Source of the DNA: a virus
Reading direction: 5' to 3' (one strand)
Length of the DNA stretch: 47,020 nucleotides
IMG/VR virus record: IMGVR_UViG_3300049046_000147
Location: 1-47,020 of that record
Shown: piece after piece, positions 22,761 to 42,186 of the stretch
Layout: each line of letters begins with the position of its first letter
How positions within the stretch are numbered: the first letter of the stretch is position 1
The notes under the pieces: generated by a model
The model's input: only the letters and a program-made list of their open reading frames with translations
What the model was told of the DNA's origin: nothing
Database searches by the model: none
Position numbers and translations under genes: made by a program

Positions 22761-22994
22761 ATGTCTAAATACGACTCACTTACTGGCAGATTAAGAATAC
22801 TCACGTCTGCTCCTTCTGACCCTAAAGAGGGTGAAGAATATTTTGATACAACAGCCGGAACACGATCCCGCTATGACGGCTCGGTCTGGAGAGCTGTTGC
22901 CTACACAACAACTTCAACCAGTACCTCTACTTCGACTACAACCACGACCTCTACCTCGACTACAACAACTAGTACAAGTACTACGACTTCCTAA
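22761..22994 (+). CDS. Small virion-type protein with Thr/Ser tail (1 of 3)
   Basis: 77 residues: an N-terminal ~48-residue domain (ILTSAPSDPKEGEEYFDTT, then SRYDGSVWRAVAY), then 29 residues of almost pure Thr/Ser. The head domain resembles the short collar/fibre motif found in many phage structural proteins (P-x-G-x-x-x-Y-x-T, then W at its end). The next gene begins at its stop codon (CTAATATGG). Likely a decoration or fibre component whose tail is glycosylated (inference). Confidence 0.65.
   Translation: MSKYDSLTGRLRILTSAPSDPKEGEEYFDTTAGTRSRYDGSVWRAVAYTTTSTSTSTSTTTTTSTSTTTTSTSTTTS
22905..22991 (+). repeat. Thr/Ser-coding low-complexity tract (1)
   Basis: 29 codons, all Thr or Ser, in mixed codons. 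C-terminal tail of the 22761 protein. Confidence 0.85.
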
Positions 22995-22995
22995 T

Positions 22996-23205
22996 ATGGC
23001 TAATACTATTAAAGAAAATGCTACACACATCAGTCAAATAAAGGGTAGAACAACCCAGGTAACGTCTGATCCTGAAAACCAGGGTGTTGCAGGTCTTCGC
23101 GAGGGAGATGTTTACTACCGAACTGACATTAGTGAAACTAGAATCAGAGCTAATGGCAAATGGTGGGGTAAAAAATTAACAACAACTAGTACGAGTACAT
23201 CATAA
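22996..23205 (+). CDS. Small virion-type protein with Thr/Ser tail (2 of 3)
   Basis: 69 residues from the ATG at 22996: NQGVAGLREGDVYYRTDISE and IRANGKWWGKK form the same head domain as its neighbours, followed by a short TTTSTSTS end. The family pattern (G-D-x-Y-Y-x-T, then W) is clear. Starts one base after the previous stop and is followed one base later by the third copy. Confidence 0.6.
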   Translation: MANTIKENATHISQIKGRTTQVTSDPENQGVAGLREGDVYYRTDISETRIRANGKWWGKKLTTTSTSTS

Positions 23206-23206
23206 T

Positions 23207-23518
23207 ATGGGTCAAACACACTATTCAAAACTAGCAGGTAAAGCCGCAACAGGAACAAGTTTCCCATCTTCTCCTTTTAATGGTCAAGAGTTTTACCACA
23301 CTACTCGTCATATTAAATATCAGTATGATGCTACTGCTGGAGCTTGGAGAGGTGAACAATATAGTACGACCACCAGTACATCTACCTCAACAACTACAAC
23401 TTCTACTTCTAGTTCTACGACTACAACTTCAACCTCAACAACAACAACTAGCACGTCAACTAGTATTACAACCAGTACCTCTACTTCTACGAGTACAAGT
23501 ACAACAACTACGTTATAA
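23207..23518 (+). CDS. Small virion-type protein with Thr/Ser tail (3 of 3)
   Basis: 103 residues: head domain (FPSSPFNGQEFYHTTRHIKY, then AGAWRGEQY) and a ~50-residue tail of Thr/Ser. Same domain logic as the two upstream genes, so the three are a tandem paralogous array. Each follows the previous with no gap. Confidence 0.65.
   Translation: MGQTHYSKLAGKAATGTSFPSSPFNGQEFYHTTRHIKYQYDATAGAWRGEQYSTTTSTSTSTTTTSTSSSTTTTSTSTTTTSTSTSITTSTSTSTSTSTTTTL
23363..23515 (+). repeat. Thr/Ser-coding low-complexity tract (2)
   Basis: 51 codons, only Thr, Ser and single Ile/Leu, mixed codons. Tail of the third array protein. Confidence 0.85.
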
Positions 23519-23532
23519 AAGAAGGAAGCTTT

Positions 23533-24323: not shown

Positions 24324-24330
24324 TTGGCAA

Positions 24331-24359: not shown

Positions 24360-24383
24360 CTGGTGTAGTAAAGGAAACACTAC

Positions 24384-25703
24384 ATGAGTACAAAAAGCGT
24401 TGCTATTTTTACGAATTTTTCGACATCTGACCCCGCATATTCCCTTAATCGAGTAGTCCAAGATCAAATTAAAATGTTCCTTCACAATGGGTATGAAAAT
24501 ATCCGTGTTTTAGTTGCTGAAGGTTTTGAACCTATTGAGATGTACTCTGAAGTAGAGATTGTCCATATTCCTAATGTTCCTTGTCATAATGAAATTAGAA
24601 AAGATGAGTCATTTGATAATGATGTTGATCTTATTTATCAATCATTGAGTAAGGCTCTAGAAGGCGTTGATGTTGTCCTAACCCATGACATTATTTATCA
24701 GCCAGCAGCTCTGAAACACAATTTTGCTGCTCGTAAATTTGCTTCAGAGAATCCCAATATCAAGTGGCTTCACTGGATTCATTCTGCAACCTCTCCCTAT
24801 AAGCTTGAGGCGTTAATGGGTATTTTTGAAGATGGATACATTAATTTAGTTCGTAAAGAATTTCCCAATTCCTTTTATGTTTTCTTTAATCATTATTCAA
24901 TTCCTCGTGTTGCAGCTAACTTTGGTGTTTCAGAAGATAAAGTCAAGATTGTCCACCACCCTCTCGACGTATATGGGTTTTGGGGTCTTGATCAAGAAGT
25001 TGCTCAATTTGCAGATGCTAAAAAATTACTCGAGGCAGATGCTATCTGCGTATATCCTTGCAGATTAGATCGAGGTAAGCAGGTAGAAATAGCTATTAAA
25101 ACAATGGCTATGCTTAAAACTTTCAACATGAATGTGCGTATGATTGTTGTTGATTTTCACTCAACCGGAGGCGATAAAGTCGTCTACCGAGATGAGCTGA
25201 AAGAAGTAGGAATCGACTATGGATTAAATCCCATAGAGTTGTCCTTTACTTCTGAATTCCTCCCAGAATGGTCAGCACAATTACCACATGCTCTCGTGAG
25301 GCAACTTTTAATGTTTGCTAACGTGATGGTCATGCCGTCAGTGAGTGAAAGTTACTCACTAGTTACACAGGAAGCTGCGTCGCTTGGTGCTGTGGTAGTG
25401 CTGAACAAAAACTTTCCACCATTCAGAGACATCTTCGGACCTAATGCTATTTACAGAAAATACAATTCTGGCATTGATGTGCTCTCTGGCATGGATGGAT
25501 GGACAACCGAACACTATGGCGGAGATGATGTTTCTCCAGGTGAAAGAGAATATCACGAGAAACAATATCATAAGAATACCGCTGGTATGATTGCTTACAG
25601 ACTAAGAAATTATGAAAATTTAGTGCTTCGTCAAAAGATTCTTAAAGAACGAAATCTAGATGCAGTATTTAAAAACGAGCTAGAGCCATTGCTCTACTCA
25701 TAG
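24384..25703 (+). CDS. Glycosyltransferase, GT-B fold (GT4-like)
   Basis: 439 residues, two Rossmann-like halves. The C-terminal half carries the nucleotide-sugar-binding E-x7-E pattern in PSVSESYSLVTQEAASLG, and the preceding CRLDRGKQVEIAIKTM is the usual GT4 donor-domain start. GT4 enzymes transfer sugars with retention from UDP/GDP donors. First gene of the glycan operon and directly behind its promoter. Acceptor unknown; the Thr/Ser tracts of the virion proteins are candidates. Confidence 0.8.
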   Translation: MSTKSVAIFTNFSTSDPAYSLNRVVQDQIKMFLHNGYENIRVLVAEGFEPIEMYSEVEIVHIPNVPCHNEIRKDESFDNDVDLIYQSLSKALEGVDVVLTHDIIYQPAALKHNFAARKFASENPNIKWLHWIHSATSPYKLEALMGIFEDGYINLVRKEFPNSFYVFFNHYSIPRVAANFGVSEDKVKIVHHPLDVYGFWGLDQEVAQFADAKKLLEADAICVYPCRLDRGKQVEIAIKTMAMLKTFNMNVRMIVVDFHSTGGDKVVYRDELKEVGIDYGLNPIELSFTSEFLPEWSAQLPHALVRQLLMFANVMVMPSVSESYSLVTQEAASLGAVVVLNKNFPPFRDIFGPNAIYRKYNSGIDVLSGMDGWTTEHYGGDDVSPGEREYHEKQYHKNTAGMIAYRLRNYENLVLRQKILKERNLDAVFKNELEPLLYS

Positions 25704-25712
25704 GAAGGATTG

Positions 25713-26483
25713 ATGAAAGACGCAGTTGTAATCGGTGGACTAGGTATGGTTGGCAAAGCTACTCGACAAGCCTTTGGCATTGAGAAGTTTATTGATTTAA
25801 AAGAGTCTACCTCTTCTTATAAAGAAGCTGGAAAAATGCGCTATGTCTTTCTTTGTTTACCAACACCAACTGTTAATGGCGTTTGCCAAACAGACTCAAT
25901 TAAAGAAGCTATTAAGGCGGTTCTTGATCACAGTACTACTCAAAATGTCTTTATCATACGCAGCACTGTTACTCCTGGTACTACTAAACATCTCAACGAA
26001 ATATTGGGTATTACTTGCATTGTTCATAATCCTGAGTTTTTAAGCGAAGACACCTGGGAGTCTGACATAAATCACCCAGACCTAGCGGTTATTGGTGGAG
26101 AGAACGAGGCATATATTGAAGATGTTGCTGCTGTGTACAGGGGTCGTTATAAGGGGTTAAACATCATCAAAACAGACAGCCTTACCTCTGAGATGATCAA
26201 ATACGCTATCAACACTTACTATGCAACTAAAGTAGTATTTGCTAACCAGATTTATGATCAAGCACAACGAATTGGTGCTAATTACGAAACAATCAAAAGA
26301 GCAATGTATGGTCGCAAGTGGATTGGTAAGAATCACTTAACAGTTTGGCATAAGGAAAAACGCGGTGCTGGTGGTAAGTGTTTAGAGAAAGATCTGGAAG
26401 CGTTTGCAGAATATACCCAACTTCCCTTGCTTAAAGAAGCTAATAAATTGAACAAGAAATACTTAGGAGGACAGCATGATTGA
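25713..26483 (+). CDS. UDP-glucose/GDP-mannose dehydrogenase-like protein, short
   Basis: 256 residues from the ATG at 25713, after GGAAGGATTG. N-terminal Rossmann domain (VVIGGLGMVG), STVTPGTT, HNPEFL, a central helix with EMIKYAINTYYATKVVFANQ, and the catalytic-Cys motif GGKCLEKD are all present. Members oxidise the C6 of a nucleotide sugar to a uronic acid. It ends soon after the catalytic Cys, so the C-terminal UDP-binding domain (about 130 residues in the usual 390-450) is missing. This could be a minimal or substrate-shifted enzyme. Confidence 0.75.
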   Translation: MKDAVVIGGLGMVGKATRQAFGIEKFIDLKESTSSYKEAGKMRYVFLCLPTPTVNGVCQTDSIKEAIKAVLDHSTTQNVFIIRSTVTPGTTKHLNEILGITCIVHNPEFLSEDTWESDINHPDLAVIGGENEAYIEDVAAVYRGRYKGLNIIKTDSLTSEMIKYAINTYYATKVVFANQIYDQAQRIGANYETIKRAMYGRKWIGKNHLTVWHKEKRGAGGKCLEKDLEAFAEYTQLPLLKEANKLNKKYLGGQHD

Positions 26484-26790
26484 GGGCGCTGTAATTGAGT
26501 CAGAGGATTTATTGGCAGAAGAACCAAGAGTCGTGCGTACTCAAGCTACTGGAGATAAAATCTTTTTTCTTAAAGATGGCAAGAGACAGTGGATCAAGAA
26601 CCCAGAAACACTACGAGCACTTGGTTTTGATTTTGGACAAGAAAAAGACATCTCAATTAAAGAGCTATACGAGTATGAAGACATAGGATCAATAGATATG
26701 AGAGTTGTTGAGGAGGGCGCTGCTCCCCAAGTCACAGTGACACCACCTCCTGAAAGAAAACCAGTATTAACGTATAGAAGGTCTGCCTAA
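26476..26790 (+). CDS. Small protein with a DGK-x-W-I domain
   Basis: 104 residues. Residues ~27-70 (IFFLKDGKRQWIKNPETLRA, then LGFDFGQEKDISIKELYEYE) match a short domain found singly or repeated in bacterial and phage surface-type proteins with the pattern F-x-DGKxxWI-xx-P-x-x-x-x-LG. A Pro-rich C-terminus follows. Overlaps the dehydrogenase stop by 8 bases. Role in the operon unknown. Confidence 0.5.
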   Translation: MIEGAVIESEDLLAEEPRVVRTQATGDKIFFLKDGKRQWIKNPETLRALGFDFGQEKDISIKELYEYEDIGSIDMRVVEEGAAPQVTVTPPPERKPVLTYRRSA

Positions 26791-27530
26791 TGCCTAAATT
26801 CAGTGTTATCACTCCTGCTTATAATCATAATGAGTTTAGAAGGCGAGATCTTGATCGGTGTGTATCAAGTCTTTTAAACCAGAGCTTTCAAAAATTTGAG
26901 CATATTATTGTTGATCAAACTGACAACGAAGATTTTGACATGAGTTGGTTGGACGAGGTTGGAAGCGTTAGGTGGTTCCAGCAGCCACACCTAGAGCGTT
27001 TATATGCGCTAAGAGAGGGCTTTGAGCAGGCTATGGGTGAATGGTTCTGCTTGCTTGATAGTGACGATATTTACTTACCTCACTACCTTGAGACTTGCAA
27101 TCTGATGATTGAAGAAAATCCTGAACACAAGATGTTTAACTTTGGAAATATTTATATTCATAGAGATGGTCGGGTCACGAGTCGAGATGTCTTCAAGCCA
27201 GAAATGAAAGAAGTAGGACACGAAGAATTTGGTGGCGGCTGCATTGTAAATGGTACATTTATTTTTCATCGTAGTGTTTGGGAAGATCTCGGTGATTTTC
27301 CTACTACAACTGACAAGCTGTGGAATCCCTGGGATTTCTCTATTGCAGCTCAAGAAGAATTTCCTGAATTACAAAAATACTTTATGGTCGACCACGAGGA
27401 TGAGCCAGAAAAGATTGCTAAAGAATTGGGTAATCCGTGGGGAAATGATTTCTACCTATTTTACAAATATACAAGGAAGTATCACTCTCTTCCTATCGAT
27501 AAGCACTTGCACTGTGTATATAATAAATAA
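26790..27530 (+). CDS. Glycosyltransferase, GT2
   Basis: 246 residues, GT-A fold: KFSVITPAYNHNEFRRRDLD at the N-terminus, then the donor/metal motif LLDSDDIYLP with its DxDD, and GGGCIVNGTFIFHRS later. GT2 enzymes are inverting and use UDP-sugars. The C-terminal ~40 residues contain a Trp/Tyr-rich stretch. The ATG overlaps the upstream stop. Confidence 0.8.
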   Translation: MPKFSVITPAYNHNEFRRRDLDRCVSSLLNQSFQKFEHIIVDQTDNEDFDMSWLDEVGSVRWFQQPHLERLYALREGFEQAMGEWFCLLDSDDIYLPHYLETCNLMIEENPEHKMFNFGNIYIHRDGRVTSRDVFKPEMKEVGHEEFGGGCIVNGTFIFHRSVWEDLGDFPTTTDKLWNPWDFSIAAQEEFPELQKYFMVDHEDEPEKIAKELGNPWGNDFYLFYKYTRKYHSLPIDKHLHCVYNK

Positions 27531-27555
27531 TGAAAGCATGGTGTATAATAAACTC

Positions 27556-28032
27556 ATGGATTATACAAATAGTGGACCATTAATAGGAAAGGCTGGAGAA
27601 CTGAGAGTAAGATCGGAACTTCTTCTTAGAGGATTGTCTGGAGCTGCTTTTGATCAAGATATGGGAGTTGATGTAATTGTAAGCAATGGGAAAAGGTTGC
27701 AAATAAAAACTGCAATTAAGCCGAGTTTGGATAAAAAGGCTTATTCATGGAGATATTCGTTTAGTATAAGACAGCCTCAAGTAAGAGGAATTGGCGATGG
27801 GCTATATTCGAGAAAATATAATAAGCGAGATTATAGTGAAGTTGTAGATTATTTTGTTCTTTGGTGTGTTGAAGATAATGTTTTTTACATTATTCCAGAA
27901 GGTCAGATAGGAGCGAAGGTTTCTATAGCTATAGCTACTCCAGAAAGATTGAGAACATATAAATTAAATAAGAAATTTAAGTCAACATCGAAGTACGAGC
28001 AATACAAAAACAACTGGGAACAGCTTCTATGA
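27556..28032 (+). CDS. PD-(D/E)XK nuclease-like protein inserted in the glycan operon
   Basis: 158 residues from the ATG at 27556. IGKAGELRVRSELLLRGL, then MGVDVIVSNGKRLQIKTAIK, gives the E...D-x(9-12)-Q-I-K pattern of a PD-(D/E)XK fold of the intron-nuclease/HJ-resolvase-like type. It has no obvious glycan role. Codon use differs from its neighbours (many AGA and ATA), the gene is AT-rich, it lies in a gap that has its own TATAAT (27544-27549), and it has no ribosome-binding site. These are signs of recent acquisition as a homing-type or moron gene. Confidence 0.6.
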   Translation: MDYTNSGPLIGKAGELRVRSELLLRGLSGAAFDQDMGVDVIVSNGKRLQIKTAIKPSLDKKAYSWRYSFSIRQPQVRGIGDGLYSRKYNKRDYSEVVDYFVLWCVEDNVFYIIPEGQIGAKVSIAIATPERLRTYKLNKKFKSTSKYEQYKNNWEQLL

Positions 28033-28778
28033 CCAAACCAATCGACATTTTTATCACAACTTACGAGCGCCAGCATTTTGCTAAAGAGTGTGTGGAATAT
28101 TTATATGCACGTACTCGTACGCCATTTAAACTAACTATTATTGATAATGGTGGTAATGAGTGGGCTGAGACTGATTCTAGAGTGCAGCGCTATGTTCCTC
28201 TTCATCGAGTATTTGGTAATACCGGCGTTCACTTTGCTTGGAATGTAGCTGTGTCTTTGGCGGATAGTGAATACTTTATTACTAGTGACCCAGACCTACT
28301 AGTTCCTGATTTAGATCCTATTGAGGGAAGTACTGGTGAGGGTGATTGGTTATCTAGAATGGTTCAATACATGAATCAACGATCAAACTATGGTGCTATC
28401 TCTATGTGTCCCCATGTGTTTATTGGGGCAGAGGGAATCCCTGTAGATCATCCAGAAGATGTACTTGAGAGAAATATGTGTGGTGCGGTGTTTCGTATTA
28501 TGCGTACTGATTTTGTAAAAAGCGTAGGAGGTTGGGAGCTTCGCATTGAAGCAGGAAGGAACCATGAAGAAAGAACAGTTTGCTCACGACTTCAAAATTC
28601 TGGTTATAAAACCGGCATTTGTTCTCGTATTCGAGCTTATCATAACTTTGGACAGAATTGGGGGTATCCTGAAGAGTTTACTCCAGAGATGCAAAAACAC
28701 AATCCAGACTTAAAAGAATATGTATTAAGTTTTGATCGTAGAGAAAACTACGACGAGAAAACATGGTGGCCTAAATGA
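28029..28778 (+). CDS. Glycosyltransferase, GT2-like
   Basis: 249 residues, GT-A fold: PIDIFITTYERQHFAKECVE, FKLTIIDNGGN, GVHFAWNVAVSLADSEYFIT and the DxD-type SDPDLLVP. A later RNMCGAVFRIMRTDFVKSVG region matches the acceptor side of this family. TGA/ATG-type overlap with both neighbours. Confidence 0.75.
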   Translation: MTKPIDIFITTYERQHFAKECVEYLYARTRTPFKLTIIDNGGNEWAETDSRVQRYVPLHRVFGNTGVHFAWNVAVSLADSEYFITSDPDLLVPDLDPIEGSTGEGDWLSRMVQYMNQRSNYGAISMCPHVFIGAEGIPVDHPEDVLERNMCGAVFRIMRTDFVKSVGGWELRIEAGRNHEERTVCSRLQNSGYKTGICSRIRAYHNFGQNWGYPEEFTPEMQKHNPDLKEYVLSFDRRENYDEKTWWPK

Positions 28779-29398
28779 AAGAACGTACTTTTTGGGATAG
28801 TTTTCACAGCCAGTACCAGATGGGAGATTCTAAGCATAGATCCTATCTGCTCAATAATTTGAGATATGTTCTCAAAGCAGAATCAATGCTTGATGTAGGA
28901 TGTGGAACAGGACCGCTTTATCAGCTTATTAAAGAAAAAAAACTGAGGCTCAAATATAAAGGTACTGATTATTCGTGGGCGATGATTGAGCAGTGTCAAT
29001 TACATTTTCCAGAAGGTGATTTTGAGGTTCAAGACGCTCGTAAGTTAGAGGAGAATGCTGGTTCTTGGGATGCCGTTGTGCTTATGCACTGCTTAGATCA
29101 TTTAGATGACTATCAATCAGCTATCAGAGAAGCAGCTCGAGTAGCTAAAAAGTATGTGGTGATTGTGCTGTGGAGAGATTTTGTTACCGACGGAACACGC
29201 TTAAATGACCGCAATATGATGAATAAAGAGGAGGGTGAAAAGCCCTGGGAAGACACGTACCTACAAGAATATTCTCGAGAAGTACTGGAAGAAGAGTTTA
29301 AGAAGAACAATCTTAAAATTATCGAGGAAACTAGTGGGGAAGTGATTAACGATCCTGGTAAGTATAACTTTATTTATTGGCTGGAGAAAAATGACTGA
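28775..29398 (+). CDS. SAM-dependent methyltransferase (class I)
   Basis: 207 residues with motif I SMLDVGCGTGPLYQL and the following acidic position in YKGTDYSWAMIEQC; motif IV-like WDAVVLMHCLDHLDD. Sits between two glycosyltransferases, so sugar or peptide O-methylation is the likely role (inference). Confidence 0.8.
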   Translation: MKERTFWDSFHSQYQMGDSKHRSYLLNNLRYVLKAESMLDVGCGTGPLYQLIKEKKLRLKYKGTDYSWAMIEQCQLHFPEGDFEVQDARKLEENAGSWDAVVLMHCLDHLDDYQSAIREAARVAKKYVVIVLWRDFVTDGTRLNDRNMMNKEEGEKPWEDTYLQEYSREVLEEEFKKNNLKIIEETSGEVINDPGKYNFIYWLEKND

Positions 29399-29591
29399 GT
29401 ACTTGTTGATAGCTACTGGTTCAGGTCATCCAATGCAAGATGTCTCAATGTCTTTCTTTGTTACTGCTGATCCAGCGCCATTTGTTCAGTATTTTACTAT
29501 GGGTTTAGTTCTAGGATTAACTGTCGGCTTGGTTTTCAGTCTAGTATTGGTCGGAGTAGTAAGAAGGACGTATGATGCAAGAAATGATTAA
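29391..29591 (+). CDS. Small single-pass membrane protein
   Basis: 66 residues with a hydrophobic Gly/Val-rich span (about 34-59, YFTMGLVLGLTVGLVFSLVL). Overlaps both neighbours. Could anchor the glycan enzymes to the membrane (inference). Confidence 0.55.
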   Translation: MTEYLLIATGSGHPMQDVSMSFFVTADPAPFVQYFTMGLVLGLTVGLVFSLVLVGVVRRTYDARND

Positions 29592-30102
29592 TTATCAGGA
29601 GTTGGAGCAGCAAGCCAATCCTGGCCAGTTCAGCATCTATGATATGGAAGTGCTGGTTCCAGAAGTGCAAAAATTAGAGTCAGGAGAGTGTTATCTTGAG
29701 ATTGGGGTTGATAGGGGTCGCTCGTTGAGTATTGCTAGAAAAGTAGCTAAAGACGACGTTAGGATTTGCGGCATTGATTTAGGGGAAGATCCCAAAGTTC
29801 CAGGGACTATTTTTACTCAAGGGGATAGTCATCAGTTAAGCGATCTTGTTTCAGAAGAAATCACAGTGCTGTTTGTCGATGGCGACCACAGTTATCAGGG
29901 TTGCAAAAAAGATATTGAGATTTGGTTTCCTAAAATGAAAAGAAATGGGACAATGCTTTTCCATGATTGTGATGAAACTTCTCCAGGTGTTATGTGGGCT
30001 GTCTCTGAGTTTGTTGACACTCATCGTAAACAGGTAAGCGAATTTAAATTGTGCAAACGCACTGATAAAAATACTAGCATGGGAGTTGTTCGATTATGTT
30101 AG
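29572..30102 (+). CDS. SAM-dependent methyltransferase, Methyltransf_24-like
   Basis: 176 residues. Motif I CYLEIGVDRGRSLSIA, the acidic ribose-binding position in ICGIDLGED, and the family block FVDGDHSYQGCKKDIEIW followed by NGTMLFHDCDE match the macrocin/cephalosporin O-methyltransferase group, whose DGDH and HDxD motifs often bind a metal. It likely O-methylates a sugar in the phage glycan. Ribosome-binding site AGAAGGACGT. Confidence 0.75.
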   Translation: MMQEMINYQELEQQANPGQFSIYDMEVLVPEVQKLESGECYLEIGVDRGRSLSIARKVAKDDVRICGIDLGEDPKVPGTIFTQGDSHQLSDLVSEEITVLFVDGDHSYQGCKKDIEIWFPKMKRNGTMLFHDCDETSPGVMWAVSEFVDTHRKQVSEFKLCKRTDKNTSMGVVRLC

Positions 30103-30941
30103 AAAAAAATGATGTCACAATTGTAATTCCTCATTTAAGTACTCCTCTTGCAGACAATGCCTTGAAAGAATGTTTGCTTTCTTTACGAGAGTCAGGGTTT
30201 CCTGTAGAGAACATCATAATTGCGTACAACGGTGTGTTTGGAGGTTTTGGAGAGGTAGACATTCCAGTAGTGTGGGTAGAGCGTCAGGGTCAATGTGGAG
30301 CAGTAAATGCAGCCATTGCTACTGTCACAACCTCTTGGGTCATGGTTTCTAACAACGACATGATCTTTCCTCCAGATTGGTTTGAGCGACTAACCGGAGC
30401 ATATAGTAGTTGGGCTTTTTCTTTTGATGAGCCATGTACCATTTCTCCTCAACTTATCGAGCCTAACGATGGCGCAGTAACCTTTAAGAAGTACTTTTGT
30501 GGCGGCGCTGATGGTGATTTTGATAAAAAGAGATTTTTAACCTATGCACAAGGTCATAAGGGCGAGGGTCTTCGTAGTGGCTTTAATTTGCCCTTTTTAA
30601 TTAAAAAAGAAGTCTGGGATTTAGTTGGTGGTTATGATGTTAATTACGATCCTTGGGGCTCTAATTCGGATAGCGACCTGGAATATAAACTGAAACTAGC
30701 TGGTGTAAAAATGCTCCAGCAAACAGGCTGTCCTGTGTATCATTTTTCACAAACCAGTGGAACCTTCCATCCAAGCAAGGGAAGCTATTGGAGCAAGAAT
30801 TGGGATTACTTTATTGAGAAGTGGGGATTTCCTCGCACTGATGATGGTATTTGGGAAGCAACCTTTGAAATCCCAACTGTCAACATGGGAAGAGTCTTTA
30901 CGCCCTGGTGGGAGGGTTTCTACTCGAGGAAGACAAGCTAA
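30096..30941 (+). CDS. Glycosyltransferase, GT2
   Basis: 281 residues: VTIVIPHLSTPLADNALKEC, IIIAYNGVFGG, then NNDMIFPPDWFERL (metal motif NDM in place of DxD). A later GGYDVNYDPWGSNSDSDLEY gives the ED-type catalytic region. Inverting GT2 fold; third of its kind in the operon. Confidence 0.75.
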   Translation: MLEKNDVTIVIPHLSTPLADNALKECLLSLRESGFPVENIIIAYNGVFGGFGEVDIPVVWVERQGQCGAVNAAIATVTTSWVMVSNNDMIFPPDWFERLTGAYSSWAFSFDEPCTISPQLIEPNDGAVTFKKYFCGGADGDFDKKRFLTYAQGHKGEGLRSGFNLPFLIKKEVWDLVGGYDVNYDPWGSNSDSDLEYKLKLAGVKMLQQTGCPVYHFSQTSGTFHPSKGSYWSKNWDYFIEKWGFPRTDDGIWEATFEIPTVNMGRVFTPWWEGFYSRKTS

Positions 30942-33423: not shown

Positions 33424-33424
33424 A

Positions 33425-34718: not shown

Positions 34719-35638
34719 TAAAAAACGTCTTTATCTACAACCCTATTCGACCCGACTATATACACCGCTGCTTAGAAACGCTTTATAAGTACACTGATAT
34801 GAGCCAAAATCGGGTGATTGTGGTGGATCAAACACTTGATGGCTTGCAATTAGATATGACGAAAGTTCACCTCGTACTTCGTCCACACCGCAATCTAGGA
34901 TTTAGTAAGTCTATGAATGAAGCTATCATTCACGCCTTATATTGGGGAGCAGAATATATTACTTGTGCTAACGACGATATTGAGTATATGAATGGCGGCT
35001 GGTGGCAAGGAATTCTTGATACGTTTGAACAATATGGAGAAAAAGTTCTAGCGGTTAATCCAGAATCTCCACGTACTCCGCTATGGGGCTATGGTCGACC
35101 ACATGGCGAATATATCGACATTATTGGTTACAAGAAAGAGTTTTCTCAAGAAGACTATGATTATCTTCTAAAAGGAGATTTCTCAGATATTGATACAAGA
35201 GGCGTTCTTAATTCTCCAGTTGCCTTACCCGCTACTTTTCCTAGAAGTAAGAGTGGGGTGACTGATGCTATTGCAACTTGGCACACTACCTTCAAAGCTG
35301 AGTTTTTTGAGAAGATTGGATTGTTTGAAGAGCGATACTATCCAGGCGGCGGAGAAGATTATGATATTAATGCTCGAGCGTATAGAGATGGTTACAGGAT
35401 GCTTGGGGCTACTAAGTCCTGGGTGTGGCATTGGTGGGGCTCCTCTAAAGACAACCAGGGACAACTTGGTCAAAGCCTCCCTATCATAGATGAATTACGC
35501 TGGTTAGATGTAAGTTCAATTTGGCCTCCAGAGAGAAACAATGGCCAGTCTATGGACCCCTGGGGAAAATGGACTGATGATAAGGGTGGGAAGCATCCCA
35601 TGTATCGTGATCCTAAAATCGGTATAATTGATATTTAG
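34715..35638 (+). CDS. Glycosyltransferase, GT2
   Basis: 307 residues: the GT-A start KNVFIYNPIRPDYIHRCLET, the metal motif CANDDIEYM, a late YPGGGEDYDINARAYRDG with its ED pair, and a Trp-rich C-terminus. Last gene of the operon. A strong hairpin follows (35647-35696). Confidence 0.75.
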   Translation: MIKNVFIYNPIRPDYIHRCLETLYKYTDMSQNRVIVVDQTLDGLQLDMTKVHLVLRPHRNLGFSKSMNEAIIHALYWGAEYITCANDDIEYMNGGWWQGILDTFEQYGEKVLAVNPESPRTPLWGYGRPHGEYIDIIGYKKEFSQEDYDYLLKGDFSDIDTRGVLNSPVALPATFPRSKSGVTDAIATWHTTFKAEFFEKIGLFEERYYPGGGEDYDINARAYRDGYRMLGATKSWVWHWWGSSKDNQGQLGQSLPIIDELRWLDVSSIWPPERNNGQSMDPWGKWTDDKGGKHPMYRDPKIGIIDI

Positions 35639-35738: not shown

Positions 35739-36665
35739 ATGGCAATAGATTTAAACGATAAATCTGGAAATAGTAATACCCTCACTAATTCAGGCGCAGC
35801 AGAAGTAACAGCTTCCCTACCTTTTGCTGCCTCGACCATTGCAGCAGACTTTGAAGCAGCTGACCCTGATTACATGGAGGCGAGCGATTCCACTTCTTTG
35901 TCAATTACAGGAGATGTTACTATTGAATTTTGGGTCAAATTTGAGAGCACTCCTTCTTCTGGCAATGCAGTTGACATAGTTTCAAAATCTACCACGACTG
36001 GTGATCAGCGCTCATACCGTGTAGGTTTGATTAATAATGCCGGAACACTACAGCTCTTTTTTGCATACTCTACTGATGGCACATTCCAGGCCGGAAACGA
36101 CGTTCGCAAGAATTGGAGCCCATCAACAGCTACCTGGTATCACGTCGCTATAGTCTTTGATGCCTCAGTACCAGATGTTACTTATTATGTTGATACAGTC
36201 GCTCAAGGCAGCCCTGTTAGCGGGAGTGGAACCTCTTTATTTAATAGCAGCTCAGCGTTGCGACTTGGAAACAACCCAGAGGGAGGGGCAGCTCTTGACG
36301 GCGTATTAGATGAGGTGCGCGTTTGGAATACAGAAAGAACTAGTACTCAAATCGCCGACAATTATAATTTAGAACTAGCTGGAAACGAAACAGGCTTGGT
36401 TGCTTATTGGCCATTCGAGGCAACAATAGCTACCACTACCTCTACCTCTTCTTCAACGACTACTACAAGTACCAGCACTTCTACAAGTAGCACGACTTCT
36501 ACTTCTTCAAGCACAACGACTACTAGTACGTCTACCACCACTACAAGCACCTCAATAACTACAACTTCTACAAGTATTACGACTACCTCAACCACTGATG
36601 CTCTGGTATTTACTGTAGAAGCAGCTGAACAATATGGGTTTCAAGTAGACATACCGACTTACTAA
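35739..36665 (+). CDS. LamG-like virion protein with Thr/Ser tract
   Basis: 308 residues. Residues ~1-228 form a concanavalin/LamG-type beta-sandwich (EFWVKFES, SYRVGLINNAGTLQLFFAYS, TATWYHVAIVFDAS, LDGVLDEVRVWNTERTSTQI), a fold that often binds sugars. Residues ~232-287 are Thr/Ser. The last ~21 residues (ALVFTVEAAEQYGFQVDIPT) match the ends of the next two proteins. Tandem paralogue of the next gene. Likely on the virion surface. Confidence 0.75.
   Translation: MAIDLNDKSGNSNTLTNSGAAEVTASLPFAASTIAADFEAADPDYMEASDSTSLSITGDVTIEFWVKFESTPSSGNAVDIVSKSTTTGDQRSYRVGLINNAGTLQLFFAYSTDGTFQAGNDVRKNWSPSTATWYHVAIVFDASVPDVTYYVDTVAQGSPVSGSGTSLFNSSSALRLGNNPEGGAALDGVLDEVRVWNTERTSTQIADNYNLELAGNETGLVAYWPFEATIATTTSTSSSTTTTSTSTSTSSTTSTSSSTTTTSTSTTTTSTSITTTSTSITTTSTTDALVFTVEAAEQYGFQVDIPTY
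36432..36599 (+). repeat. Thr/Ser-coding tract (3)
   Basis: About 56 codons of Thr/Ser with two isolated Ile, in the 35739 protein. Confidence 0.85.
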
Positions 36666-36666
36666 T

Positions 36667-38430
36667 ATGGCAATAGATTTAAACGACAAATCGGGAAACG
36701 GAAATACACTTACCAACAATGGTGCTGCTGAAGTAACAACTTCGTTGGCTTTTGCAGCAACCACCATCGCTGCTGATTTTGAAGCCTCTGAAGGCGATGA
36801 CATGACCGCAGCAGACTCAACGTCGCTTTCCATAACTGGAGATATGACGGTAGAGTTTTGGGTCAAGTTTGAAAGTCTTCCAACCACTGACAATGCTGCT
36901 GAAATCATCAATAAGTATTCTCATACTCCAGCCAATAGAAGATCATATCGTATTGGTTTAATCAATAACGGCGGAACGCTACAGCTTTTCTTCAACTACT
37001 CAACTACTGGAGACAACTATCAGGCTGCTAATGACGTTCGACAAGCATGGACTCCGAGCACCGCTACCTGGTATCACGTCGCTATAGTTTTTGATGCTTC
37101 TGTTCCTGATATGACGTTTTATGTCAATGGATCAAGCATTGGCACTGTTTCTAGCAACACTGGTACTTCAATTGCTAACACCGACCAGGGGCTAACAATT
37201 GGTGATTATCCTACTGGATCTACTGCCTTAGATGGTGTTTTAGATGAGGTACGCATCTGGAATACAGAAAGAACGGCTACAGAAATTGCCAACAACTACA
37301 ATGTCGAATTGAGTGGTGGGGAAACAGGGCTAATGGCCTACTATCCATTCGAGGCAACCATTGCAACTACCACTAGTACGTCTTCATCTACTTCAACTAC
37401 CACGACCTCTACTAGCTCCTCAACCACAACGACAAGTACATCCAGCTCAACGACAACAACCTCTACAAGCTCGAGCACAACAACTTCGACCACAACAACT
37501 TCAACTTCTACAAGTAGTACAACCAGTATCTCTACCTCAACCACGACTACAAGCACTAGTTCTAGTACCTCGACAACAACTACCTCTACATCATCCAGTA
37601 CGACAACCACCAGCACTTCGTCATCCACTACGACCACCAGTACATCGACTTCGACCACAACGACTTCGACTTCAAGCTCTACTTCAACTAGTACAACCAC
37701 GACATCGACTAGCTCTAGCACTTCTACTTCTTCAAGCACAACTACGACTAGTACATCTACCTCGACCACAACGACTTCAACGAGTACATCTAGTAGTACA
37801 ACTACCACCTCAACAAGTTCGAGCACGACTATCTCAACGAGCACAAGTACCACTCAAAGTGTTACGACCAGTACTTCCACTTCATCTACAACGAGTTCGT
37901 CTACCTCAACAACTACCACCTCGACAAGTACGAGCACAACGACTACTAGCACCTCATCTTCCACAACCATCTCTACAAGTAGTAGTACGACTACTACTTC
38001 AACCAGCACTTCCAGCAGTACTTCTAGTTCAACAACAACTACGTCAACCAGCACAAGCACGACGATTACAACATCCACGAGTACGACAACTACATCTACT
38101 TCATCAAGTACCACAACCAGCACCACCACAACTAGCACTTCAACTAGTACAACCACCACTTCAACTTCTTCAAGCACAAGTAGTAGTACGACTACTACCT
38201 CCACAAGCTCGAGCACCTCTAGCTCTACCACCACCACGTCAACCAGCTCTAGTACAACTAGCTCTACGTCGAGTAGTACCTCAATTACATTTTCTACAAC
38301 CACCAGTACTTCGACCACAACTACCAGCACATCTAGTTCTACAACCACTTCAACAACCACAACGATTGGCATGGCGTTTATAGTAGAGACAGCAGATATG
38401 TATTTTGAGATTGAGCACCCAGGCGAATAA
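36667..38430 (+). CDS. LamG-like virion protein with ~330-residue Thr/Ser tract
   Basis: 587 residues: LamG-type domain at ~1-230, near-identical in plan to the preceding protein (MAIDLNDKSGNGNTLTNNGA; ATWYHVAIVFDASVP is identical in both). Residues ~233-566 are almost only Thr and Ser, with rare Ile/Val/Gln. The C-terminal ~20 residues (GMAFIVETADMYFEIEHPG) are a cap shared with the neighbours. The tract would be extended and is an ideal O-glycan acceptor. Confidence 0.75.
   Translation: MAIDLNDKSGNGNTLTNNGAAEVTTSLAFAATTIAADFEASEGDDMTAADSTSLSITGDMTVEFWVKFESLPTTDNAAEIINKYSHTPANRRSYRIGLINNGGTLQLFFNYSTTGDNYQAANDVRQAWTPSTATWYHVAIVFDASVPDMTFYVNGSSIGTVSSNTGTSIANTDQGLTIGDYPTGSTALDGVLDEVRIWNTERTATEIANNYNVELSGGETGLMAYYPFEATIATTTSTSSSTSTTTTSTSSSTTTTSTSSSTTTTSTSSSTTTSTTTTSTSTSSTTSISTSTTTTSTSSSTSTTTTSTSSSTTTTSTSSSTTTTSTSTSTTTTSTSSSTSTSTTTTSTSSSTSTSSSTTTTSTSTSTTTTSTSTSSSTTTTSTSSSTTISTSTSTTQSVTTSTSTSSTTSSSTSTTTTSTSTSTTTTSTSSSTTISTSSSTTTTSTSTSSSTSSSTTTTSTSTSTTITTSTSTTTTSTSSSTTTSTTTTSTSTSTTTTSTSSSTSSSTTTTSTSSSTSSSTTTTSTSSSTTSSTSSSTSITFSTTTSTSTTTTSTSSSTTTSTTTTIGMAFIVETADMYFEIEHPGE
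37363..38367 (+). repeat. Thr/Ser-coding tract (4), ~1 kb
   Basis: About 335 codons with over 97% Thr/Ser. All four Thr codons and both Ser codon boxes (TCN and AGY) occur, so it is not a simple DNA repeat. The reverse strand gives long artificial open frames rich in Val/Glu/Leu. Confidence 0.9.
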
Positions 38431-40586
38431 TGAAACAAATAATTTTAGCGCAAATACGAGCAAATAATGCAACTGGGACCAGATACAGTCAAATTAATAC
38501 TGACTCATCAAGTGCTTGGCCCACCACAGAATCTACTAAGGAAGTCACTTTTCCTGCGGCTGGTACTATTAGAAACCTTAGAGTAAAACTATCGGTTGCT
38601 CCTGGATCTGGCAACAGTTGGGCCTTTACTCTCAGAAAAAATAACGCCGACACAAGCGTTACCGTAACTATTTCAGACACCTCTACTTATGCAGAAGACA
38701 CAACTAATAGTTTCACGGTTGCTGCTGGAGACAGACTAACTCTTAAATCCATCTCGTCTGGAACGCCCACAGTTAGTCATGTGATTTTTGGCTTAGAGTT
38801 TGAAGGCGACACAGCAAAAGAGAATGTACTGCTTGGTACTAGTTATGCCAACCTATCTACTTCTGCCACCAACTACATTGGTGTTACGGGAGGCAGGAGC
38901 GATCCCACTACTACGGCAGGAAGACATCAAATAGTAGCTCCTCATGCTTTTACGATAAAAGCAATGTATGTTGCCTTGACAGCAGCACCAGGAGCCAGTA
39001 AAAGCTATGCATTTACTATCCAAAAAAATGGATCTAACGAAGCATCATCTACCGTTACTATTACGGGAGCCGCCACAACAACTGGAAACGTAACTGGATT
39101 AAGCATAGCAATGGCAGCTGAAGACCTGTTGAGAATTGAAGTAGTTCCTTCAGGAACACCAACGACAGCGCAAGCTAGAAGCGTCTCATTATTGCTAGAG
39201 TCTACTACCGATCATTACTCAATAATGACCTACTCTACTCCAAGTACTTTTGCTCTGCCTACCGGAGCTGACAATTATCTAAGAATACCAGGCGGCACTT
39301 CAATTTCAACTGAAGCAGATGCAGAAAGTCTTATTTCTGGCGGAAATTATGTTCTTAAAAACTTATATGCTGATCTAACAACTGCTCCTGGCTCTGGTAA
39401 AAGTCGTCGTTTTGTTCTTAGAAAAAATCAGGCAGATACCGCTATTGAAGTAACAATCGGAAATACCGAAACTAAAAGCAATGACCAAGCAGATACAGTT
39501 ACTCTAACCACAACTGATTCCATTGATTATCTAACTGTACCAGAGAATACTCCCGCGAGTACAGAAGGACGAGTTTCTTTAACTCAAGATACTAATCCAG
39601 CTTCTTTGACTACGACTTCTACTAGTAGTTCAACTACTAGTAGTACTTCTAGTTCTACAACTACGACCAGCACATCTACTTCAACTACTACCTCTACCAG
39701 CACGACCCTGAGCGTCACAACCTCAACTTCCACTTCAACGACAACTACCAGTACGAGCACATCTTCTACTACGTCAACCTCATCAAGTACTACCACAACT
39801 AGCACGAGTACTAGCATAACGACTTCAACATCCTCTTCGACATCTTCTACTACTACTTCAACCAGTAGCTCTACTACTTTGAGTACGTCTACGAGTACGA
39901 CAACAACCAGCACATCTTCTTCTTCAAGTACTTCTAGCTCAACGACCACCACGTCCACTTCAACGAGCACGACTACAACTAGTACATCTACCAGTAGCAG
40001 CACTTCATCCTCAACTACAACTACCAGCACGTCTTCTTCAACGACAACGACTTCAACGAGTACTTCAATTACTACTTCGACATCTACCAGTACAACTTTG
40101 AGTATTACGACAAGTACGTCGACAACTACCACAAGTACTTCTACTTCAACGACTACCACCAGCACTAGTTCTTCTTCATCAACCTCGACTACTACCACGT
40201 CCACTTCAACGAGTACGACAACTACTTCCACCTCAAGTTCTTCAAGTACCTCATCGAGCACTACGACTACTTCAACATCTACGAGTAGCAGCACTACAAC
40301 AAGCTCTTCAACAACTACTACCTCGACAAGTACGAGTAGCACAACCTCAATCAGTACGAGCAGCTCAACCACGACTACTTCAACGTCTACAAGTAGCACT
40401 ACTTCTAGTTCAACTTCGACTACAACTACCTTTTCAATCACCACGTCCACCAGCAGTAGTACTACGACCAGCACTTCTACCTCGATAACCACCACCTCGA
40501 CCACTACCACCTATGGTTTTGCTTTCAGCGTCGAAGCAATTGAGGAAGAGAATGTATTTACCATAGATAAGGCATGGCAGAATTGA
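38430..40586 (+). CDS. Three-repeat beta protein with ~300-residue Thr/Ser tract
   Basis: 718 residues. Residues ~35-385 hold three copies of a ~110-residue beta module with the pattern GTIRNLRVKLSVAPGSGNSW, then FTIKAMYVALTAAPGASKSY, then YVLKNLYADLTTAPGSGKSR, each followed by an (A/R)FTLRKN-like strand. Residues ~393-694 are the Thr/Ser tract with sparse LSV/LSI/FSI interruptions. The C-terminal ~24 residues (YGFAFSVEAIEEENVFTID) are the shared cap. Probably a fibre or surface protein. Confidence 0.7.
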   Translation: MKQIILAQIRANNATGTRYSQINTDSSSAWPTTESTKEVTFPAAGTIRNLRVKLSVAPGSGNSWAFTLRKNNADTSVTVTISDTSTYAEDTTNSFTVAAGDRLTLKSISSGTPTVSHVIFGLEFEGDTAKENVLLGTSYANLSTSATNYIGVTGGRSDPTTTAGRHQIVAPHAFTIKAMYVALTAAPGASKSYAFTIQKNGSNEASSTVTITGAATTTGNVTGLSIAMAAEDLLRIEVVPSGTPTTAQARSVSLLLESTTDHYSIMTYSTPSTFALPTGADNYLRIPGGTSISTEADAESLISGGNYVLKNLYADLTTAPGSGKSRRFVLRKNQADTAIEVTIGNTETKSNDQADTVTLTTTDSIDYLTVPENTPASTEGRVSLTQDTNPASLTTTSTSSSTTSSTSSSTTTTSTSTSTTTSTSTTLSVTTSTSTSTTTTSTSTSSTTSTSSSTTTTSTSTSITTSTSSSTSSTTTSTSSSTTLSTSTSTTTTSTSSSSSTSSSTTTTSTSTSTTTTSTSTSSSTSSSTTTTSTSSSTTTTSTSTSITTSTSTSTTLSITTSTSTTTTSTSTSTTTTSTSSSSSTSTTTTSTSTSTTTTSTSSSSSTSSSTTTTSTSTSSSTTTSSSTTTTSTSTSSTTSISTSSSTTTTSTSTSSTTSSSTSTTTTFSITTSTSSSTTTSTSTSITTTSTTTTYGFAFSVEAIEEENVFTIDKAWQN
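39606..40511 (+). repeat. Thr/Ser-coding tract (5), ~0.9 kb
   Basis: About 300 codons of Thr/Ser with sparse hydrophobic residues; codon choice is varied, as in tract 4. Confidence 0.9.
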
Positions 40587-40617
40587 CGCTTGGTACAAAC
40601 TAAAATAGAATGGAACT

Positions 40618-41898
40618 ATGGCTACATCAGCGCGAAGACTAAGAATTCCACATCCAGATCTATCTGAAACACAGAAGACCTATTTAAATGCTGACTATAC
40701 AACCGGCAGCAATCTCTCGGTTGATAGTAACGTCGGCTTTGCAGCAACTCAAATTGCGGTTGTTGGTAATCCCAGAGAAGAACAAACAGAGGCAGACAAT
40801 ATTACTGGCATATCGGGAAACCAGACAATAACTCTCTCAGGAACTCTTAAATTTGATCACAACTCCAATACTCCTATTTACAGATCAGAATATGATCAGG
40901 TAGAAATCTCTTACTACGATGGTTCTACCTGGGCTGTACTTACAACCATTGATATTCAGTGGGATCAGTTAAATACCATTTATGTACACTCTGGTGGCAC
41001 TGACGCATATTCCTATAGGTTTAGATTCTATAACTCAGCGTCGGGTGATTTCTCAGAATACTCTGGCTCTCAGGCTGGATCGGGTTATAGTAAAAATCAG
41101 ATTGGTTCAATGGTGCAAAGAGTACGAAAAATCGTTGCTGATCCCAATAAGCAAATAGTAAGTGATTCAGAAATACTGAGTCTATTTACCGCAGCTAAAG
41201 ACATTATCAGAGCAAAATCTCCAGAAGGTGGGTGGTATTTTTGGAAGAATACGAGCAGTGCTATCACTACAACTGCCAGCACGTTTAAATATAATCTAGA
41301 CAGTATCTCTGACTACATTGATTTTATTGGACAGATCAGGTATCGCTACGACAATAGCGATGGGGTCGACACAACATACCCACTTGATCAGCTTACAGAC
41401 CTAGAATTTTATGAGTTGACCCAAGACAATGATCGAGAAGATGATGATTGGGCTGAGGCATATCGAATCCTAGTTGGTGATGGTAGTTCTGATTCAGGTT
41501 ATATCGAAGTGTATCCAACTCCAGCAACCACTGGACGAGGAACCTTTTATGTTGACTACTATGAGCTTGAACAAGACTATGACAGTTTTAGTGACACAAC
41601 CAAAATCCCTATTCCTCAATTACTCGTCTACTTTGCAGTAGCAGAGATTGAGCAGATTAAAGGTAACGACGGCAAATCCAAAGTTTACAGAGACTTATTC
41701 TTTGGTCCTCCTCCAGACAAGAGAGACAACGAAAACTTAACAGGATTAGCACTCCTTTATAGTATTCACAACAAGAAACTGCGCGCATTAAAGAAACCAA
41801 GAGTACTAAAGAAATTTAAAGGTAGAGGGTATCTAAGCCGAGTATACAGGGGCAGATCTCATTCAAGAAGCCAATCGGATAGAATCAACTACTGGTAA
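40618..41898 (+). CDS. Head-tail adaptor-like protein with extra N-terminal beta domain
   Basis: 426 residues. The C-terminal ~250 residues (MVQRVRKIVADPNKQIVSDS, then GYIEVYPTP and FYVDYYELEQDY, then KIPIPQLLVYFAVAEIEQIK) match the adaptor/tubular-A type, a portal-bound ring protein of short-tailed phages. The N-terminal ~150 residues are an added beta-sandwich (QTITLSGTLKF, YDQVEISYYDGSTWAVL). Its place directly upstream of the nozzle-like genes supports this call. The C-terminus is very basic. Confidence 0.65.
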   Translation: MATSARRLRIPHPDLSETQKTYLNADYTTGSNLSVDSNVGFAATQIAVVGNPREEQTEADNITGISGNQTITLSGTLKFDHNSNTPIYRSEYDQVEISYYDGSTWAVLTTIDIQWDQLNTIYVHSGGTDAYSYRFRFYNSASGDFSEYSGSQAGSGYSKNQIGSMVQRVRKIVADPNKQIVSDSEILSLFTAAKDIIRAKSPEGGWYFWKNTSSAITTTASTFKYNLDSISDYIDFIGQIRYRYDNSDGVDTTYPLDQLTDLEFYELTQDNDREDDDWAEAYRILVGDGSSDSGYIEVYPTPATTGRGTFYVDYYELEQDYDSFSDTTKIPIPQLLVYFAVAEIEQIKGNDGKSKVYRDLFFGPPPDKRDNENLTGLALLYSIHNKKLRALKKPRVLKKFKGRGYLSRVYRGRSHSRSQSDRINYW

Positions 41899-41907
41899 GG
41901 AGTTATT

Positions 41908-42186
41908 GTGCCTGATTTAGAACCCGAGAGAGTTGTCCCACAAGAAGATTTTTCTGGTGGACCTCAAGAGAAAACCTCTCGTTTTCAAGCTAGAGAGAAT
42001 AATTTACGCTTTGCACAAAATGCACGGTTTGGTGAAATTGGTGGAATTGCCATAGCTCGAGGCTTTGAACAAACTGGAAGCGACTTAACTTCTACTACCT
42101 CGACAAGTACTTCCTCGTCTACCACCACAACTTCTACTTCCAGCTCTACTTCTACAAGTACTACAACTAGCACGAGCACATCATAA
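41908..42186 (+). CDS. N-terminal arm of a nozzle-like tail protein, ending in a Thr/Ser tail
   Basis: 92 residues with a GTG start at 41908 after AAGGAG. The first ~60 residues (EDFSGGPQEK, then LRFAQNARFGEIGGIAIARG) correspond to the N-terminal arm of nozzle/tubular-B-like tail proteins, which usually continue into a beta-propeller. Instead a 32-residue Thr/Ser tail and a stop follow, and the next gene starts with the propeller. See the finding on the split gene. Confidence 0.6.
   Translation: MPDLEPERVVPQEDFSGGPQEKTSRFQARENNLRFAQNARFGEIGGIAIARGFEQTGSDLTSTTSTSTSSSTTTTSTSSSTSTSTTTSTSTS
42088..42183 (+). repeat. Thr/Ser-coding tract (6), between nozzle halves
   Basis: 32 codons of Thr/Ser ending in TCATAATGG, the same junction style (tail, stop, immediate ATG) as the small array at 22.8-23.5 kb. 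Confidence 0.85.

Follow-up and report, generated by a model that had tools for sequence, protein, structure and literature searches.

A glycosyltransferase cassette and Thr/Ser-tract proteins as a candidate virion glycosylation system of uncultured phages

Why does a phage place a long run of sugar-modifying genes between proteins with tracts of almost nothing but threonine and serine? The locus in question belongs to viral record IMGVR_UViG_3300049046_000147, and the whole stretch analysed, 47,020 nucleotides, is referred to here as the window. An earlier note, made from the sequence letters, had proposed that the phage makes a modified glycan and attaches it to these tracts. We assessed the tract proteins, the enzymes encoded between them and the occurrence of both in other viral records. 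All genes given below by coordinates lie on the + strand.

Proteins with Thr/Ser tracts

The family was anchored on the gene for an HK97-type major capsid protein (21783..22697; PHROG major head protein, E 2.8e-26), for which 16 relatives were aligned at 56-78% identity. Three stub-and-tract genes lie downstream of it. The first (22761..22994) encodes a beta domain of about 48 residues, modelled by AlphaFold with a pLDDT of 83, and then a 29-residue tract that runs up to the stop codon (22905-22991, 100% Ser+Thr). The second (22999..23205), whose start at 22999 is an addition to the earlier note, combines the same domain with an 8-residue tail (23179-23202, 100% Ser+Thr), and the third (23207..23518) has this domain followed by a 50-residue tract and one Leu (23363-23512, 98% Ser+Thr). 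The domain family was aligned from 65 stubs, and its predicted fold matched models of phage fibre and decoration proteins. A weak sequence match (E 0.02-0.07) pointed to beta domains in the tail fibres of T7-like Pelagibacter and Prochlorococcus phages; there the domain is part of the fibre, whereas in the window it is a free protein of about 50 residues beside the capsid gene, with a tract at its end.

Four further tract genes lie beyond the enzyme genes. Two encode proteins with a lectin-like LamG-type domain (Laminin_G_3): one (35739..36665) has a 55-residue tract (36432-36596, 96% Ser+Thr) and a short C-terminal cap, and the other (36667..38430) a tract of 333 residues (37366-38364, 98%), likewise capped at the C-terminus. 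The next protein (38430..40586) consists of a 390-residue N-terminal part that gave no confident match, a 301-residue tract (39609-40511, 96%) and a C-terminal cap. The last is a 92-aa protein (41908..42186) with a C-terminal tract of 32 residues (42088-42183, 100%). Its gene has connector-type genes on both sides, an SU10-type adaptor gene and a head-closure-like gene; the window's adaptor protein retrieved no relatives when used as a search query. The seven tract proteins described in the earlier note were recovered, with tract lengths of 8 to 333 residues and with their genes on both sides of the 11-kb operon.

The description of these tracts as mucin-like held in part. They are indeed dense in Thr and Ser (96-100% over 29 to 333 residues), but proline is absent from all seven and the T/S order, instead of being arbitrary, is conserved. 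In a random sample of 120 viral loci (1.07 Mb), tracts of at least 12 residues turned up in three loci only, and a tract of at least 30 in one. Codon use in the window's tracts is nearly even over the four Thr codons (1.96 of 2 bits), and AGY codons account for 42% of Ser codons. Slippage of ACN/TCN units cannot yield AGY, so the tracts are products of neither chance nor slippage; the codon mix, together with amino-acid identity despite synonymous change, rules out a slippage origin. The pN/pS ratio was 0.33 for tracts and 0.29 for the stub domain, with pN inflated by the two Ser codon blocks.

Residue order within the tracts was far from random. TTTTSTS occurred 47 times compared to 6.7 in shuffled sequences, Thr runs longer than four were nearly absent, and a 9-residue tendency was seen. 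Two relatives carried an identical 39-residue tract in which 28 of 39 codons differed. At the level of sequence, selection is shown to act on T/S order. Each phage also followed its own rule for the lengths of Thr runs, and the tracts on the head side and the tail side of a phage obeyed a common rule (distance 0.22 versus 0.47; permutation P 0.0002, n=11, close sisters included), which is what a single set of enzymes acting on both would produce. In the window the Thr runs were of 1 and 4, in G037 and G045 of 1 and 6, and in G472 of 1 and 2; G475 had Ser runs of 4.

The glycosyltransferase cassette

The operon content listed in the earlier note (seven glycosyltransferases, a dehydrogenase, an epimerase, a deacetylase-like protein and three methyltransferases) was borne out by Pfam matches, some of them weak. 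With three small genes absent from that note, at 26476, 27532 and 29391, the cassette comprises 16 genes. It begins with a GT4-type glycosyltransferase (24384..25703; Pfam Glycos_transf_1 above cut-off), followed by a shortened nucleotide-sugar dehydrogenase of the UDP-glucose type (25710..26483), in which NAD-binding and central domains and a catalytic-type motif, GGKCLEKD, were found and the C-terminal NDP-binding domain was not. Next come a small protein with no Pfam match (26476..26790), a family 2 glycosyltransferase (26790..27530; PF00535, E 1.3e-15) and an inserted gene for a PD-(D/E)XK nuclease-like protein (27532..28032; weak Pfam match below cut-off), which was present in only 1 of 20 compared records. 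Another family 2 enzyme (28029..28778; PF00535) precedes a methyltransferase (28775..29398; Methyltransf_11), a 66-aa protein with one transmembrane segment by hydropathy (29391..29591), the sole membrane-type protein of the cassette, and a further methyltransferase (29572..30102; Methyltransf_24).

The remainder holds a family 2 glycosyltransferase (30096..30941; PF00535), a glycosyltransferase of the Glyco_trans_1_2 type (30946..31908), the third methyltransferase (31908..32510) and a GT1/GT4-like glycosyltransferase (32488..33423) whose Pfam match fell just under the cut-off and whose relatives hold their cassette place in five unrelated phages. A GalE-like NAD-dependent sugar epimerase/dehydratase (33401..34147; Pfam Epimerase, E 1.6e-25) and a DUF2334/polysaccharide-deacetylase-like protein with a weak, borderline match (34116..34718) follow. 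The last gene encodes a family 2 glycosyltransferase (34715..35638) with relatives near the cassette end in five unrelated phages. Cassette content differs between phages. A Pfam scan of the cassette proteins detected no lipid-carrier enzyme, flippase, polymerase or oligosaccharyltransferase, and neither a multi-pass membrane protein nor a base-modification gene was found in the cassette.

The product of the first gene is a member of the GT4 / GT-B retaining glycosyltransferases. Its score for PF00534 was 29.9 bits against a cut-off of 26.4, and its AlphaFold model (GT-B fold, pLDDT 92.7) matched MshA, BshA, WaaG and PimB' (E 1e-10 to 1e-13), as well as the NY2A virus glycosyltransferase 3oy2. 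R227, K232, E322 and E330, comprising Arg/Lys donor-phosphate residues and the E-x7-E motif, were invariant across 64 relatives. The enzyme bore no specific resemblance to any proven protein glycosyltransferase. Identity as a GtfA-like priming glycosyltransferase was rejected, with no sequence relation to GT4 among solved structures. GT4 was absent from 50,697 phage records, which held no cultured relative, and from 72,556 plasmid records.

Association of cassette and tracts among phages

The marker for scanning was changed from a loose T/S signature to a strict one and then to GT4 itself; the loose signature was too broad, with many proline-interspersed Thr linkers of other kinds among the matches listed. 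Scanning with GT4 only, we found 56 viral loci that also hold a related major capsid gene. Thr/Ser tracts lay within 4 kb after the capsid gene in all 56, compared to none of the 35 GT4-less capsid relatives for which 2 kb or more downstream was available. The earlier note had named independent occurrence of tracts and operon at equal rates in related phages as refuting its proposal, and the outcome was the opposite. Within the capsid family this association reflects a single origin and long co-retention, and the 56 counts are not independent. GT2 clusters (10/15 versus 2/35) are a lead only, since the groups had been assigned visually ahead of the search.

Phages with few or no further genes in common also had this cassette, with its gene order retained. 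Long tracts were present in 6 of 7 such cassette-sharing records of at least 40 kb and in 1 of 12 random records of that size, a small comparison sample (Fisher p = 0.0017, or 0.004 when the search seed, G039, was left out). Six records (G039, G472, G474, G475, G476 and G480) have mainly the cassette in common with the window, and each contains at least 205 tract residues, up to more than 1000. As in the window, G039, G476 and G480 have structural genes with tracts immediately after the cassette or no more than about 2 kb away. From the end positions in G472, G474 and G475, circular cassette-tract adjacency looks likely; these records are classed as linear, and the adjacency was not counted. 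G042 shares only a divergent GT4 with the window, and its tract genes directly adjoin that gene. No tract was found in G478 (50 kb, GT4-positive) or in six shorter GT4 records (13-37 kb), but the latter are fragments. Long tracts occur in G050 without a GT4 of the window type, and in the unrelated tract phages G056, G069 and G085 the tract genes adjoin other glycosyltransferase and sulfotransferase-like genes. The constant association and order in these genomes show that cassette and tracts travel together and appear to have moved between phages.

A candidate virion glycosylation system and its alternatives

We consider it probable that operon and tracts form one system that coats the virion with O-linked glycans, by cytosolic, stepwise O-glycosylation of dedicated acceptor tails. 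Dense acceptor arrays would be provided by the Thr/Ser tails of short fibre-base-like stubs near the head and, near the tail, by those of fibre-type proteins, the LamG proteins among them. GT4, as the putative priming enzyme, would put the first sugar covalently on Thr/Ser in the cytosol of the infected cell, and the soluble family 2 and GT1-type enzymes would lengthen the glycan by single sugars. Making or decorating the sugars would fall to the dehydrogenase, epimerase, deacetylase-like protein and methyltransferases. Finished glycoproteins would then assemble on head and tail, giving the virion a hydrophilic glycan brush, with particle shielding, solubility or surface binding as likely uses of the coat. 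The lack of membrane-protein enzymes, lipid-carrier enzymes, flippase and oligosaccharyltransferase in the cassette fits cytosolic stepwise transfer. More tentatively, and with considerable doubt on our part, the Thr/Ser order may be a lineage-specific 'grammar' that is read by each phage's own glycosyltransferases, with acceptor and enzymes having co-evolved and T/S order specifying glycan placement or density.

The tracts could instead be bare spacers or ordered fibres, such as repetitive beta structures, that keep domains off the particle, with the cassette acting on a separate target. Other kinds of Thr/Ser tracts do occur in many viral contigs without glycosyltransferases, several tracts lie between domains, and conserved order with a 9-residue tendency would suit a regular fibre. 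We nevertheless judge this unlikely, as it accounts neither for the joint retention of cassette and tracts in unrelated phages nor for the tracts of the short proteins running up to the stop codon; a fixed geometry would be expected to give one rule everywhere, but the rules differ by phage. It is hardly credible that the tracts arose by neutral expansion of low-complexity sequence or as artefacts of assembly: their lengths vary widely among relatives and several contigs end within them, but AGY and TCN codons are mixed, all four ACN codons are used, T/S order is non-random with amino-acid identity at synonymous saturation, and tracts recur in dozens of independent assemblies.

Phage glycosyltransferases that act in serotype conversion, superinfection exclusion or DNA modification are well known, and the cassette might likewise alter the host surface or the phage DNA, its place among structural genes being incidental. 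Its variable content resembles that of surface-glycan loci, and the 66-aa membrane protein lies inside it. Such a role is quite improbable in our view, since the cassette has no lipid-carrier transferase, flippase, polymerase, other multi-pass membrane protein or base-modification gene, and is found among structural genes in unrelated phages.

The proposed system has partial parallels. Chloroviruses of the PBCV-1 type build their coat glycan in the cytosol with virus-encoded enzymes; unlike the window, they have a eukaryotic-algal host and an N-linked glycan on the major capsid protein, and are not known to have Thr/Ser tracts. In Gram-positive bacteria, the serine-rich repeat glycoproteins (SRRP) with GtfA/GtfB combine long Ser/Thr acceptors, a conserved glycosyltransferase primer and variable extending glycosyltransferases (PMC6973325). 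The window resembles these in its long Ser/Thr regions, conserved candidate primer and variable set of further glycosyltransferases, but its GT4 has no DUF1975 (none in the Pfam scan of cassette proteins) and no GtfB partner, and its tracts are nearly pure T/S. SecA2/SecY2 export genes were absent among the scanned cassette and neighbouring proteins, and genes of PglL/PilO-type lipid-carrier O-glycosylation (initiating lipid sugar transferase, flippase, membrane oligosaccharyltransferase) had no Pfam match in the cassette. As summarised in PMC12363180 and PMC12619734, which cite Freeman et al. 2023, mycobacteriophages Che8, Corndog and Myrna glycosylate capsid and tail proteins at C-terminal sites with their own glycosyltransferases, and a shielding role is reported for the glycans. 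Phage-encoded glycosyltransferases are common to both, seven in the window; by these summaries the mycobacteriophages use a few such enzymes on ordinary capsid and tail-tube proteins, whereas the window combines a 16-gene cassette with dedicated Thr/Ser proteins as putative acceptors. Che8 gp108-gp110 had no phmmer or profile match among the window's proteins.

The host was sought through related genes. One 4-kb contig in a Ca. Zambryskibacteria MAG carries a capsid gene of 61% identity together with the beginning of a tract. This was the only genome with a capsid match among 380 of its phylum, and GT4 was in none of the phylum's genomes; with one matching genome and no GT4, a binning error is equally likely, and this lineage is no more than a possible host.

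Our search of the open literature found no description of a cassette and Thr/Ser tract system. We infer a form of phage virion glycosylation that brings enzymes and acceptor together. Such a system would offer a well-defined candidate for the priming step and an acceptor of the simplest conceivable kind, made only of T and S, both suited to work in a laboratory host, and the cassette could supply enzymes for glycan addition to designed peptides. The grammar, if real, would be a sequence code for the glycan brush. If the proposed system is correct, a self-contained, horizontally transferred set of enzymes with a purpose-built acceptor would be present in six or more groups of uncultured phages that are distinct in other respects, and glycan-brush phages would be predicted in the environment.

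Thr/Ser tracts and operon of the window

The 47,020-base virus record encodes a terminase, a portal protein, an HK97-type major capsid protein (21783-22697), an SU10-type adaptor and a head-closure-like protein. Seven nearly pure Thr/Ser tracts were found where the earlier note had placed them, with lengths of 29, 8, 50, 55, 333, 301 and 32 residues; Ser and Thr account for 96 to 100% of the tracts, and proline is absent from all seven. The 11-kb operon between the tract groups, referred to here as the cassette, likewise had the content described there: seven glycosyltransferases (GTs), a nucleotide-sugar dehydrogenase, an epimerase, a deacetylase-like protein and three methyltransferases. A PD-(D/E)XK-like gene within the cassette (27532-28032), otherwise seen in one relative only, is possibly a mobile insertion. 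The three large tract proteins of the window share a short C-terminal cap (F.VEA or similar; 36597-36662, 38365-38427 and 40512-40583), and similar caps occur in relatives; the cap may be an anchor or tip motif.

The short proteins encoded directly 3' of the capsid gene (stubs) consist of a beta domain of about 50 residues that runs straight into a tract, an arrangement repeated across the family in 90 distinct stubs. No Pfam match above the cut-off was obtained for the window's stubs. Structural neighbours of the AlphaFold model (pLDDT 83) were all weak and included phage tailspike, major tropism determinant and collagen XVIII/XV trimerisation domains. Against a viral structure library the model matched phage fibre, decoration and collagen-like proteins (best E 1.3e-3), and weak sequence matches in cultured phages were to tail fibres of T7-like Pelagibacter and Prochlorococcus phages. 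We infer that the stub domain is a small oligomerising fibre base.

One open frame of contig 3300002460_002255 (from 12375 onwards; 2825 onwards in locus L236 of record G041) encodes a nearly pure Thr/Ser tract of 1,565 residues, about 4.7 kb. Contigs G042, G046, G472 and G069 begin or stop inside such tracts, which suggests that assemblies break there and that tract phages are under-represented among complete genomes.

Co-occurrence of tracts and cassette

Capsid relatives at 71-79% identity (L004-L008) all carried tracts right after the capsid gene, and no comparable tract was found at 38% identity or less (L009-L060), where one 12-residue Ser-rich match occurred, in L024. GT2 genes were likewise present in the L004-L008 group only (the L005 contig was too short to judge). 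The constant member of the cassette is its first gene, a glycosyltransferase (GT4; 24384-25703). Viral contigs were scanned with GT4 alone and tracts sought afterwards, so that loci were not chosen by tract. Fifty-six of the loci recovered also hold a related capsid gene, at identities down to 36% and a median distance of 1.8 kb from GT4. A tract of at least 12 residues lay within 4 kb 3' of the capsid gene in 56/56, and one of at least 30 residues in 52. Among capsid relatives that lack GT4 but have 2 kb or more of downstream sequence, a tract followed the capsid gene in 0/35; the Fisher value for this comparison (5e-26) overstates the evidence because the loci are related lineages. The association within the capsid family is one origin with long co-retention.

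Just upstream of GT4 in L406 (6719-6810; record G479), more than 20 consecutive Ser residues take the place of Thr/Ser, making this a poly-Ser counterpart of the arrangement. At 2046-3729 of L330 (contig JANLIM010000024.1, from a Ca. Zambryskibacteria MAG), a group I intron (Rfam RF00028) interrupts a related capsid gene next to an HNH-type endonuclease frame on the opposite strand, and a stub-and-tract gene starts at the contig end. This contig is the only, and weak, hint of a host.

Outside the capsid family, GT4 was found in phages having mainly the cassette in common with the window. Gene order was kept in these phages (GT4, 26790-type GT2, 28029-type GT2, 32488-type, 34715-type, named by start coordinate in the window), with varying insertions and losses; G474 differs in retaining the 25710, 30096 and 30946 types instead. 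Long tracts were present in 6/7 cassette-only records of at least 40 kb (G039, G472, G474, G475, G476 and G480; G474 and G475, which have some additional genes in common, may represent a single lineage), G478 being the sole exception, and a comparable pattern in 1/12 random records of at least 40 kb (Fisher p = 0.0017, or 0.004 without the search seed G039). The tract gene lies a few bases after the cassette in G480, and within about 2 kb of it in G476 and G039. In G042, which has nothing else in common with the window, the tract genes are directly followed by a divergent GT4, which has 25% identity and scores 438 bits against a family profile that includes it as a member. Tract genes also stand beside other GT or sulfotransferase-like genes in three more unrelated phages (G056, G069 and G085). 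One of these, the contractile-tail-type phage G056, encodes a protein with 101 consecutive Thr (34309-34881), directly adjoining a sugar-pathway cluster of about 26 kb (7779-34302) with nine GT2 matches; no relative of the window GT4 was found in it. G050 is a counter-example: its tracts total 820 residues, yet it lacks such a cassette.

Selection on tract sequence

Thr codon use in the tracts is near-even (1.96 of 2 bits) and AGY makes up 42% of Ser codons, which rules out slippage of one DNA unit as their origin. The order of Thr and Ser is far from random: in 737 tract residues TTTTSTS was counted 47 times, whereas shuffles gave 6.7 (maximum 14), and a five-Thr run was seen once where about 33 overlapping matches would be expected. 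Between the related phages L348 and L397, a 39-residue tract is identical at 39/39 amino acids and differs at 28/39 codons. The tracts are thus selected at the protein level.

Thr run lengths vary by phage (1 and 4 in the window, 1 and 6 in G037/G045, 1 and 2 in G472). Eleven genomes had sufficient tract on both sides for a comparison, and in these the head-side stubs and other tract proteins of a genome obeyed the same rule; the mean within-genome rule distance was 0.22 versus 0.47 for shuffled pairs (P 0.0002, an optimistic value as some genomes are sisters). Ongoing gene conversion could produce such matching, but it fits poorly with codons that have diverged. We prefer the reading that one modifying enzyme is common to all tracts of a genome.

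Candidate mechanism and known systems

GT4 is confidently modelled (pLDDT 92.7) as a GT-B enzyme, with MshA, BshA, WaaG and PimB' as structural neighbours. R227, K232 and the E322-x7-E330 motif make up the catalytic set typical of GT4 enzymes and do not vary across 64 sequences. Neither 50,697 phage records nor 72,556 plasmid records yielded a relative of GT4. GT4 is a candidate priming enzyme, acting first on the polypeptide, because it is the only cassette gene that accompanies tracts in all lineages, among them G042, in which no GT2 gene was found. One 66-residue protein is the only cassette product with a transmembrane segment, and searches of the cassette turned up no lipid-carrier transferase, flippase or oligosaccharyltransferase. 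Periplasmic block transfer is therefore unlikely, and stepwise transfer of sugars in the cytosol is favoured.

Our search of mainly open-access literature found no description of the system. In serine-rich repeat glycoproteins, GtfA/GtfB prime Ser/Thr and a variable GT set extends the glycan (PMC6973325). The proposed system resembles this logic of priming and variable extension, but no DUF1975, GtfB or SecA2/SecY2 was found among the cassette and neighbouring proteins scanned, which places it outside that system. It also resembles mycobacteriophage virion glycosylation, as covered in PMC12363180 and PMC12619734 (citing Freeman et al. 2023), although the Che8 enzymes are unrelated to those of the window. 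The earlier note had proposed that tracts and operon form one virion glycan system; comparisons among genomes now support that putative link from several directions.
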